The notes beneath the pieces are model-generated. The model searched no databases and was not told the origin of the DNA. It saw only the letters and a program-made list of their open reading frames with translations. Both the position numbers and the translations under genes were made by a program. This document shows positions 1 through 61,440 of a DNA stretch of 64,000 bases, piece after piece. The DNA lies in contig NC_087377.1 of the NCBI RefSeq assembly GCF_963675165.1, positions 17,939,018 through 18,003,017 of the forward strand, written 5' to 3'. Source of the DNA: Halichondria panicea. Its lineage: Eukaryota; Porifera; Demospongiae; Suberitida; Halichondriidae. Position 1 is the stretch's first letter. Each line of letters opens with the position of its first letter.

Positions 1-1734
1 TTTCTCATTCAAAAAGAATTAACACACAATCATCTTGTATATACAAAAGACTATTAAAGCGACATTTCGGTATAAAAATAAGAACACACATATCCCTATT
101 ACACTCACAGGTTCTAAATTACTGTCTCACTGCTTCACGATTAATTATTATTTGATTGAGCCAACATACCCTCACCACTTGTTGTTGTTGTCAAGAGATC
201 GACAATTCTTAACGCTCCTGATCTATATCTGAAGGATAGGCATTATAATTAATTATAGCTTATCACACATGCACACTGTGCAGGGAAATGTACGCTAAAC
301 TCAGACAGTGGATATCATGCAACTTACCTGGATTAACATAATCATATGAGTGCTCCGATTTGACGTTGACTGCATCATTAGGGGCAGACATACCATATGC
401 GGGATTCCTCGCTGTGTGCATGTGATGCATAGTTAGTAACCATAACACAAGTGTTAACAACTTACATGCAGTTTGGTTGGGATGCAAGGAATAAGAAGGT
501 TTTCGTCTCTGACAATTCAACAGTATGAGAATAAAGAGTAGTATGATCACTATGACTCCAATAACTCCAACCACAGACACAGCGATTACCACTTCGTTAA
601 CATCACCTCCTATTTATGAATCTAATAATTATTATAGGCTGGCAATTGGAATAAAGAACCTTCTGTAGGTGGTGTGAGGAAGCTGATGGTGATGTTTGCG
701 CTCACGCCAGGGGTCAAAGTGCAAGAGTAGGTCCCTGTGTCTGTAGATTGTGGGTTAATGAATACGAGGTTATTGCCAACTTGAATGGCAGACGAGGGCA
801 GATTGAGTCGACCAACACGCCCCCAGCGTAGAGAAAGGACATTACTGACACTGGAGGAGCAGTTGAGTTGTGTTATCTGACCAGCAAAAACTTCCCTGGG
901 ACCGGAAACAGTGGGCGGTGAGGGTGCTGTGTGTGTGTGTGTGTGTGTGGAGGGGGAGTTGTGGGTGTGTGTGTGTGTGGAGGAAAAATTAAAGTATTGT
1001 AGTTGTCCATGGCAGGGATGTGCCCTCACCGCCAGTTTACCAAACAAGAGGCAATTTGTGTATAGAATTGAGATTGAAGATGCTACCACTCCACAACATT
1101 CCAGGCACACACTGGTTGTCCTGTACGCCACTACAGTGTACAACATTCCATGCACACACTGGTTGTCCTGTACGCCACTACAGTGTACAAGATTATACAA
1201 AACTTACGTTGTGTGGAAAATTCAACCTGAAATAAGAACTGAGATGTTCCCATCGCATTGACAGATGCAACACGCACGTCATACAAAGCACTCGGTATTA
1301 GATCCGTCAATATCACCATGGTAACATGGCTGGGTATCCTTCTTTCTATAACATCATTATCAGAGGTCCAATCATTGAGCCGCTCCTTGTATTGTATGAG
1401 GTATTCGTCCACTTGACCCCCAGGAAACACCCAGGAAATTAGAGCCGTTCGATTGGTTACTTGGTGCGAGATAGGTTCTAACAAAATTGGCTGTGGTTCA
1501 TCTGTGAGGGTCATGATCATTATTTTTTGGTCTGTTTTGATTCCCCCCCCCCCCGTTTAATCAATGGTTTGGGGACTCATTCAGCTTGCCATAACTTAAC
1601 CTTTGGATTTAAACACATCATTTGAAAGGTATTTTTCTCGGCTTTCAGAAAATCATTGACATTGTATCAACTGTACTAAAGTTATGGCCGTTAAAAGATG
1701 CTCTATTTAACACAATACTACTACAAATGGTTCT

Positions 1735-1910
1735 GTAACTATAGACTGTTCTAACTAACTAGCTCTGTAACTATAGACTGTTCTAACTGACTAGCTCTGT
1801 AACTAGACTGTTCTAACTGACTAGCTCTGTAACTATAGACTGTTCTAACTGACTAGCTCTGTAACTATAGACTGTTCTAACTGACTAGCTCTGTAACTAT
1901 AGACTGTAGC
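1735..1910. repeat. 32-bp minisatellite in a B1 intron
   Basis: About five tandem copies of a unit built from ctagctctgtaactatagac plus tgttctaactga. Some copies lack a few bases. B2 and B3 have only a single unit-like stretch at the same intron position, so the array grew within B1. Confidence 0.85.
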
Positions 1911-60100: not shown

Positions 60101-61440
60101 CTCCATTGAAGTACCACACTGTTGAGGTTGCAGGGTAGCCAGTGTTGGCACAGGAGAAGGAGGTAGGCATAGCAGAGCTTGATCCTACAATCACTTCACG
60201 TGCGTTTGAGGGATCCATCGTTATCATGGCTCTCCCTGTGTGTGTGTGTGTGTGTGTGTGTGTGTGTGTGTGTGTGTGTGTGTGTGTGTGTGTGTGTGTG
60301 TGTGTGTGTGGGTGTGTGTGTGTGTGTGTGTGTGTCCTTACGTTGCACTGTGACTGCTCCACTACTGATAATAGTGACTTGGCCTTCTCTGCATTCCAGA
60401 GTGACTACAGCTGGGGGAGTAGGTAGGTTTGTGATCGTACCCACTGCTTCGTTGGAATCGGTGTTAGTTCCAACACTATTAGAGAAAGCACAAATACGAT
60501 TTAGCGTCCCTTGTGAAGAAACATAGCTGAACTCAAAGTCCTCATCCTCTCCCTCTGCAGAAAAAGCTGTGAGATCTCCTATTTCCTTGTACACAAAATC
60601 CATTCCATTTACTAGTCCAGTACCGTTGACAAAATATGTCTGAGAGCTTCTCTCTGATCCGTTCATTTGAGCATTGCTTACTTCACAGTGATAATCGTGT
60701 GAGAAAGTTTCAATATCTCGAATGTAGGCCCATCTTCCATCCTCCAGAAACCTTATGAGATTAGTGTCCTTGTTCTCGACTAAAGGTGTACCGTCTTGAA
60801 ACCACACGATGTCTGGAGGTGGCTGCGAGTCCCCAACCCTGCACTCAAGAGCTATGTCAATACCAAATCCAAGAGTAGGAAGTGCAGTTGGTACAAACGT
60901 ACGCACTTCCTCAGTTGGCATAAAGCCACCGAAAACTGAAGATAGAAAAATAATGATTATTACTCAATGTAGGATCATGAATTGCTTACATGCATAGTGG
61001 ACAGTGATGTCTCTACTGCGGATGGTTGCAATGAAGCCAGGCTCTCCAATGGTGTTAGTAGCCTCACAGCGATATATTACTCCAGTCGTAGAAGCAAAGT
61101 CTCCCTCAGTGATATTTTGTACCAAGAAGGTACCATTCGAAAGCACACAGTCAGCGTCAACCACGTCATCTCCCCTGTACCAAGTCACGGTAGGTGTAGG
61201 GGTCCCGGTAACATCGCATTGTAAGCTAAGATCTGAATTAGATCCATCTTCATTGGTTGCAAAGACAACCACATCTTCTTGCTCACTGTTGAAACTAGGA
61301 GCCACTCCTACCTCTGTATATATATTAGCTATAATATAATAAGAAGTTGATCTCTCACCTGTGTGTGCAGAGAACACAATATTGGTGCTGTAGATGCAGA
61401 GAAAGATAAGAACTCCTCCACTTGCTGTCATGACAGCCAT
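57119..61440 (-). CDS. Family A Ig receptor A8 (intact)
   Basis: Predicted 858-residue receptor. Exons: 61359-61440 (signal), 60990-61313 (Ig1), 60342-60935 (Ig2 and atypical Ig-like), 59945-60235 (Ig), 59511-59855 (Ig), 59236-59441 + 58903-59002 (split Ig), 57594-57890 (Ig), 57119-57456 (TM and tail), 859 codons. The intron before the last Ig exon is about 1 kb instead of under 100 bases, due to inserted sequence and two (GT)n tracts. Tail motifs VIYDTI, NAAFGL (the first NxAY tyrosine is Phe here: PVLNAAFGL), AEYETI, NPAYGL, ending NETLV as in A4 and A6. Loss of that one tyrosine is the clearest tail change among intact copies. Confidence 0.88.
57935..58590. other. Unique insertion in A8 intron 7
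   Basis: About 650 bases not found in the siblings, between a GT tract and the two GT arrays. It contains a repeated ttgtaagctat motif (58,290-58,330). No protein and no clear terminal repeats. Confidence 0.5.
58592..58880. repeat. Two (GT)n arrays with duplicated flank
   Basis: GT arrays at 58,592-58,673 and 58,780-58,880, each preceded by aggtggcaagcacaaaacaa and followed or preceded by aatagagatggtagtgtg. A tandem duplication of flank plus microsatellite. Confidence 0.85.
60236..60336. repeat. (GT)n / (CA)n tract at the A8 exon-4 acceptor
   Basis: About 100 bases of GT on the plus strand, forming (CA)n up to the CACACAG acceptor on the coding strand. Confidence 0.9.

Follow-up and report, generated by a model that had tools for sequence, protein, structure and literature searches.

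Here we describe a tandem array of immunoglobulin (Ig) superfamily receptor genes in the demosponge Halichondria panicea (assembly GCF_963675165.1; 131.46 Mb in 39 contigs). The array lies in a stretch of 64,000 nucleotides on contig NC_087377.1 (C1:17939018-18003017, hereafter the window), the right end of which is 135.8 kb from the end of the contig. Splice-aware models yielded twelve genes, all on the minus strand, with eight members of a family termed B and four of a family termed A. According to self-BLAST of the window, the copies are ~71–94% identical across long stretches, well above chance. Both analyses agree with an initial annotation of this DNA, which had proposed twelve minus-strand copies of two families. 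One reference gene per family (B_56 and A_42) was built manually from splice signals and projected onto the other copies with a custom splice-aware protein-to-DNA aligner; the open and damaged states given below are those of splice-predicted models in one assembly. The features of the window are as follows:

57119..61440, minus strand: B_61, intact family B gene of 9 exons with a type-1 tail (VIYDTI, YETI, NPAYGL); its spliced model is free of stops and frameshifts.
53121..56549, minus strand: B_56, intact family B reference (manual model with Pfam Ig families).
47571..52292, minus strand: B_52, intact family B gene whose first intron is long.
43313..46557, minus strand: B_46, family B pseudogene with several stops and frameshifts and an unrecognisable exon 7.
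33029..37036, minus strand: B_37, family B gene with a lone nonsense codon in exon 2 (position 36771).
21454..24506, minus strand: B_24, intact family B gene with a short type-2 tail (NPAYGL, YDTV) without an immunoreceptor tyrosine-based inhibitory motif (ITIM).
8657..11835, minus strand: B_11, family B pseudogene with a stop and frameshifts and a tail remnant that has NPAYGL and lacks VIYDTI and YETI.
4678..7707, minus strand: B_7, intact family B gene with a short type-2 tail, the block-duplication partner of B_24.
38098..42531, minus strand: A_42, intact family A receptor gene of 13 exons; its tail comprises 11 tandem units and, close to the end, DEDVYEDI.
38227..38631, minus strand: coding minisatellite in the A_42 tail exon, with units of 33-36 bp NDAVRNPAYDLS (Tandem Repeats Finder and translation).
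17786..21145, minus strand: A_21, family A gene with a stop at 20241 and a frameshift at 20260; exons for the last Ig domain and the transmembrane (TM) segment were not found.
12908..17479, minus strand: A_17, family A gene with a 1-base deletion in exon 3 near 16907 and a tail with NPAYGM and YEHI.
263..4342, minus strand: A_4, family A gene with a TG-repeat stretch in place of FN3 exons 5-6, which were not found; tail with NPAYGM and YDYV.
28889..33531, no strand: repeat structure around a gap of 200 N (31082-31281), a probable assembly artefact.

Half of the copies read open (B_61, B_56, B_52, B_24, B_7, and A_42), two carry a single lesion (the nonsense codon of B_37 and the 1-base deletion of A_17), and the remaining four (B_46, B_11, A_21, and A_4) show multiple lesions or lost exons. 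A frameshift that the aligner had called in B_24 was rejected as an artefact of acceptor choice. Intact, truncated, and dead members were thus found as proposed, whereas the secreted forms of the initial annotation were not established, because A_21 lacks its TM exons but also carries a stop and a frameshift. Likewise, the signal peptide attributed to every copy was present as an exon with an ATG in 11 of 12 copies, but the model of A_21 begins at query residue 7.

Family B proteins comprise approximately six Ig-like domains encoded by nine exons, which specify a signal peptide, an Ig domain, the long exon 3, an Ig domain, an Ig-like domain, an Ig domain split across two exons, an I-set domain, and, in the last exon, the TM segment plus the cytoplasmic tail. 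Exon 3 encodes an Ig domain and a variable stretch without a Pfam match. The 13 exons of family A encode a signal peptide, an unclassified N-terminal domain, an Ig-like domain, an Ig domain, four FN3 domains, a further Ig domain, the TM segment, and the tail. Four Ig domains had been claimed for this family, but the Pfam scan gave no match for the first domain exon (exon 2), for which the label “Ig1” was dropped, and the Ig-like domain of the third exon is weak and falls under the Pfam cut-off. The mean AlphaFold confidence (predicted local distance difference test) was 36.9 for B exon 3 (6 sequences) and 52.6 for A exon 2 (4 sequences). The Pfam scan of B_56 and A_42 retrieved Ig and FN3 families plus a small number of weak matches to other families, with no Calx-beta domain anywhere and no kinase, phosphatase, or TIR domain after the TM segment; all listed A and B tails end within 193 residues. 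Relatives of B exon 8 were not found in viral contigs, nor those of B exon 3 in prokaryote genome contigs, as expected of an animal gene.

A B copy stands immediately upstream of an A copy at three places in the window. The B_7-A_4 and B_24-A_21 pairs align over 4,956 columns at 89.6% identity (self-BLAST), and their spacers are 78% identical over almost the whole length. This confirms the proposed block duplication for one B-A block. In contrast, the spacer of B_46-A_42 resembles the B-to-B spacers and is unlike the other two B-A spacers, so that a third block duplication was rejected and the claim of repeated B-A pairs with common spacers holds for two pairs only. The gap is flanked by a direct repeat of 1,110 bp (99.7% identical), outside of which lies an inverted copy of 1,047 bp (99.9%) of the 3' end of B_37. 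This arrangement is probably an assembly error, the effect of which on genes is confined to one spare TM exon (29026-29388).

The tyrosine-bearing tails that had been proposed for the membrane forms were recovered; within the window, B has two tail types and A has one. VIYDTI, AEYETI, and NPAYGL are present in each of the five type-1 B tails that are complete in the window, and these tails are almost invariant at YDTI, YETI, and NPAY. An ITIM, an NPxY motif, and two YxxI/L/V motifs occurred together in 26 of 20,000 shuffles of the B_56 tail. The A tails have NPAYGM or NPAYDL followed by YEDI, YEHI, or YDYV, and the coding minisatellite has given the A_42 tail 11 tandem units of 11–12 amino acids, eight of them with NPAYDL, upstream of DEDVYEDI. 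The genome contains 71 matches to SH2 domains.

A genome-wide scan for the codon pattern NPAY[G/D/E..][L/F] gave 31 matches compared to one control match. Nineteen of them lie in the cluster described here (eight in the A_42 repeat and one in the inverted copy beside the gap), seven at C10:1.636–1.678 Mb, and five elsewhere; all 26 matches with NPAYG or NPAYD fall within these two Ig arrays, and the five others read NPAYE. The array on contig C10 is unlinked to C1. Its 9-kb stretch C10:1636001-1645000 (L037), from which NPAY matches extend to C10:1678336, contains tandem genes, each with a TM/tail exon and a pair of Ig-like exons, of which one passes the Pfam Ig cut-off and the other falls below it. 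Two of the three C10 tails keep the order TDPxYD, N-T-AY-x-L, YET, NPAYGL, and in a comparison of the three with the B tail, shuffled sequences scored as high in 0, 0, and 4 of 2000 cases. The C10 tails are homologous to the B tail, and nearly the same tail therefore serves two unlinked Ig families whose ectodomains differ. We regard this sharing, which was absent from the initial annotation, as the most informative result of our analysis. Judged from its sequence, the genome has more tandem Ig arrays beyond the A/B cluster.

The initial annotation had confined the array to the span of the twelve copies, but further stretches of both families occur outside the window. Family B was found at 17.722, 17.739, 17.748, 17.751 (a fragment), 17.755, 17.814 (a tail), and 16.403 Mb of C1, and family A at 17.592, 17.691, 17.910, and 16.405 Mb. 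Some of these 11 further stretches are perhaps parts of one gene, and the loci have mixed orientations. Together with the window, the cluster covers C1:17.59–18.00 Mb, with an additional A-B pair at 16.40 Mb; a B signal-peptide exon lies just past the A copy at 17.59 Mb. In the 9–10 kb that flank the window on either side, no A or B match was detected. Among the matches listed in the whole-genome searches, which scored the best candidates, those off C1 at E ≤ 1e-6 were of family A only and weak (C9, 9.6e-8; C3, 4.9e-7), and none was of family B. The region 17.70–17.90 Mb was read whole, other stretches were read partly, and 18.013–18.139 Mb was covered by genome searches alone, so that all copy counts are lower bounds. 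Near the right edge of the window, an FN3 exon (62969-63328, minus strand) apparently belongs to another gene.

Some of the outlying copies are mosaics:

C1:17910146-17915486: A_u910 (L033), a family A relative in which sushi repeats (Pfam Sushi, E 7.3e-33) take the place of Ig-type exons two and three and of the initial FN3 domains.
C1:17721585-17724871 and C1:17755094-17758421: B_u722 and B_u755 (L011, L014), B ectodomains on an unrelated TM segment and tail (type 3) that differ from those of the other B copies.

The sushi repeats of A_u910 stand between an A-type N-terminal domain and an A-type FN3-Ig-TM part, of which one FN3 domain, the last Ig domain, and the TM segment are retained; its tail model is incomplete. 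A_u691 has a different TM segment. Across the cluster, B ectodomains thus occur on type-1, type-2, and type-3 tails, and both TM/tail exons and ectodomain exons have been exchanged. Open frames downstream, with PEYESL and PPMY motifs, may continue the tails of B_u722 and B_u755. For A_u592, B_u738, and B_u748, the model ends resemble aligner artefacts and were left uninterpreted.

Three observations concern the wider genome. The isolated A-B pair (C1:16402968-16407008) sits, perhaps by chance, in a run of at least 14 matches to Calx-beta (C1:16.243–16.443 Mb), the domain type of the sponge aggregation factors. Other dense I-set runs, for which 150 of 848 candidates were scored, lie at C1:6379666-6443713, C5:1986829-2079870, C4:5633639-5720448, and C9:6684604-6704721. 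Finally, a degenerate silicatein pattern had one genomic match and no control match, in surroundings that read as silicatein-like exons; among the best 60 of 84 matches, one such exon matched silicatein alpha (6zq3) at E 3.8e-12 and cathepsins at 2e-6 or weaker. The genome therefore holds a silicatein gene, which marks it as that of a siliceous demosponge and bears out the sponge origin assumed in the initial annotation.

The B exons are a recombination patchwork. A PHI-type (pairwise homoplasy index) test of 10 of 14 B models, including two pseudogenes, with 331 informative sites gave an observed value of 0.387 compared to 0.523 (standard deviation 0.007) in permuted data, and none of 2000 permutations was as low. 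Moreover, the closest relative of a B copy switches exon by exon, and exon 3 combines common blocks in varying arrangements. The birth-and-death evolution and the receptor anatomy that had been put forward are borne out by duplicated, open, and damaged copies, swapped tails, and patchwork exons.

We lean towards reading the locus as a birth-and-death cluster of recognition receptors that signal via phosphotyrosine. These type I Ig-superfamily proteins would bind variable ligands, such as the cells of other sponges, microbes, or symbionts, through ectodomains that may have diversified for recognition. SH2 proteins would read the YxxI/V sites, with VIYDTI serving as an ITIM that the short tails lack, and PTB-type adaptors would read NPAY. 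Alike ectodomains on different tails could then produce opposite or graded output, as in paired receptors. The recognition role had been part of the initial annotation and is supported indirectly, by the patchwork ectodomains, the swapped tails, the ITIM-like and NPxY tails common to the C10 array, and a selection signal that was not robust to recombination, as detailed below.

The best reading by analogy is that the cluster works like the Alr complex of Hydractinia or the FcoR genes of Botryllus. Alr genes and pseudogenes of single-pass Ig-superfamily proteins are clustered in one region, and the sponge cluster likewise consists of tandem type I Ig genes and pseudogenes. Alr proteins have few domains, whereas the sponge B proteins have approximately six Ig domains and the A proteins combine Ig with four FN3 domains, their tails are rich in NPAY besides YxxI, and they belong to another phylum. 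Excerpted accounts describe at least 41 loci in the Hydractinia complex, with highly polymorphic Alr1 and Alr2 (PMC11067881), and ITIM-type motifs in Alr proteins (PMC12065747). In the Botryllus fuhc region, fester and FcoR are, according to the same excerpted review, neighbouring cognate pairs with Ig, sushi, Ig, and TM parts and tails with an ITIM, a hemITAM (a half immunoreceptor tyrosine-based activation motif), or a core YxxI/L/V (PMC12065747). The sponge B-A neighbours, the sushi-bearing A_u910, VIYDTI, and DEDVYEDI may be counterparts of these features; in the sponge, however, B and A are adjacent in only some copies, and the ITIM-like motif is in B and the hemITAM-like motif in A_42. 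Vertebrate KIR, LILR, CEACAM, and CD300 receptors, as far as the excerpted sources describe them, combine alike ectodomains with unlike signalling tails, as do the sponge B copies with type-1, type-2, and type-3 tails, but the sponge proteins differ in their NPxY-rich tails, their FN3 domains, and their unrelated lineage.

Within sponges, the standing candidate for allorecognition is the aggregation factor family of Calx-beta proteins, from which the absence of a Calx-beta match in B_56 and A_42 sets the present genes apart. Excerpts report Ig-bearing receptor tyrosine kinases and adhesion molecules that rise after grafting in Geodia (PMC2248247) and note sponge TIR-Ig receptors (PMC7308585). 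A and B are likewise sponge surface proteins with Ig domains, but without a kinase or TIR domain and organized as clustered multigene families. In the open literature searched, we found no comparable cluster of Ig receptors in sponges, and we do not claim its absence beyond that. A more far-reaching version of the analogy, which we offer tentatively and hold to be unlikely as a whole, is a natural killer (NK)- or Alr-like paired-receptor system in demosponges that governs self/non-self discrimination. At least two unlinked birth-and-death Ig arrays would share one phosphotyrosine tail code (ITIM-like YDTI, YETI, NPAY[G/D]L, and hemITAM-like DEDVYEDI), which would be tuned by tail exchange and growth of the NPAYDL minisatellite.

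Per-exon dN/dS, here calculated among the copies, gave a mixed result. Pairwise values, damaged copies included, were 0.76 for B exon 3, 0.97 for B exon 7, and 1.15 for A exon 2, in which dN exceeded dS in six of six pairs. A custom M1a/M2a comparison of 15 segments without multiple-test correction favoured sites with omega >1 in exons 3 (p = 2e-9) and 4 (8e-5) of B and exons 2 (8e-6) and 3 (4e-4) of A, and more weakly (p = 0.003–0.015) in B exons 2, 6-7, and 8 and A exon 5; significance was not reached in exon 5 of B or in exons 4, 7, 8-9, 10, and 11 of A. A signal in the B tail exon (p = 1e-7) was rejected as an alignment artefact, since it comes from the five codons that directly follow the acceptor. 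In a rerun of 11 segments with near-gap codons masked and B_46 excluded, B exon 3 (7e-6) and A exon 3 (4e-5) kept their signal, B exons 2, 4, and 6-7 reached 0.02–0.03, and B exon 8 and A exons 4 and 5 were not significant.

Several results weigh against a cluster of diversifying recognition receptors. Mean pairwise dN/dS, damaged copies included, was under 1 in both families (B, 0.64; A, 0.63), the signal of B exon 3 fell to p = 0.22 and 0.057 when the exon was split in two for recombination, and that of A exon 2 was rejected, since it dropped to p = 0.35 when 60 of the 93 codons, those near gaps, were masked. In six B copies, introns diverge by 0.145–0.321 and exons by 0.027–0.173 (exon 3, 0.122); as the introns are more diverged than most exons, the proteins are still constrained. 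Together, these values suggest constrained proteins with an ectodomain that is relaxed to weakly diversifying, and leave positive selection unproven. The PDB sequence neighbours of A and B are Ig proteins of the adhesion or muscle type (titin, Dscam, contactin, and Robo). VIYDTI fits the ITIM consensus and DEDVYEDI of A_42 is close to the hemITAM form, both as judged from the consensus only, and such motifs are short: an ITIM match alone occurred in 3641 of 20,000 shuffled B_56 tails. Lastly, the NPAY pattern was picked after the motif had been seen, and matches in duplicates are non-independent.

Within the favoured reading, the ligands may, with a lesser likelihood, be microbes or symbionts instead of allogeneic tissue. 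Sponges expand other microbe-sensing families (NLR and SRCR) according to an excerpted source (PMC7308585), and the cluster has the sushi-containing member A_u910, but the words “immunoglobulin” and “Ig-like” are absent from the main text of one sponge symbiont-exposure study (PMC11229196). Judged from the genes themselves, allorecognition and microbe recognition are not separable here.

A rather unlikely alternative to recognition receptors is that A and B are lineage-specific homophilic adhesion or matrix-sensing receptors of the contactin, Dscam, or RPTP kind, amplified in tandem and without a self/non-self role. This would agree with the PDB matches named above, among the best of which is also RPTP, with the mean dN/dS below 1, and with the occurrence of NPxY motifs in adhesion receptors such as integrins. 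However, adhesion families are usually more stable, whereas here six of the twelve copies have lesions, tail and ectodomain exons have moved from one copy to another, and exon 3 is a patchwork. Less probable still is neutral birth-and-death with gene conversion in a region that readily undergoes unequal crossing-over, where relaxed constraint mimics diversification. The region is repeat-rich, with TG/CA repeats in several introns, and close to the contig end, its recombination signal is strong, many copies are damaged, and the selection signal was not robust once exon 3 was split; yet six long multi-exon genes are kept open, exons are less diverged than introns, type-1 tails are nearly invariant at their tyrosine motifs, and the unlinked C10 array keeps the same tail order. 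It is very improbable that an assembly artefact inflated the copy number, as the gap with its near-identical repeats might suggest, since the twelve copies differ by ~6–29% in nucleotides and hence are not one locus assembled twice, and only the spare TM exon is touched.

According to excerpts of a 2025 review, the proteins considered candidates for allorecognition in sponges, cnidarians, and ascidians show no conservation, yet systems from cnidarians to mammals, among which the excerpts do not name sponges, converge on ITIM/ITAM-type signalling (PMC12065747). If the locus is indeed a recognition receptor cluster, a demosponge Ig array with ITIM-like and NPxY tails would offer a concrete locus for grafting genetics and for expression and phosphorylation tests, and would represent a testable candidate for the recognition of self, foreign tissue, or microbes in one of the oldest animal groups.

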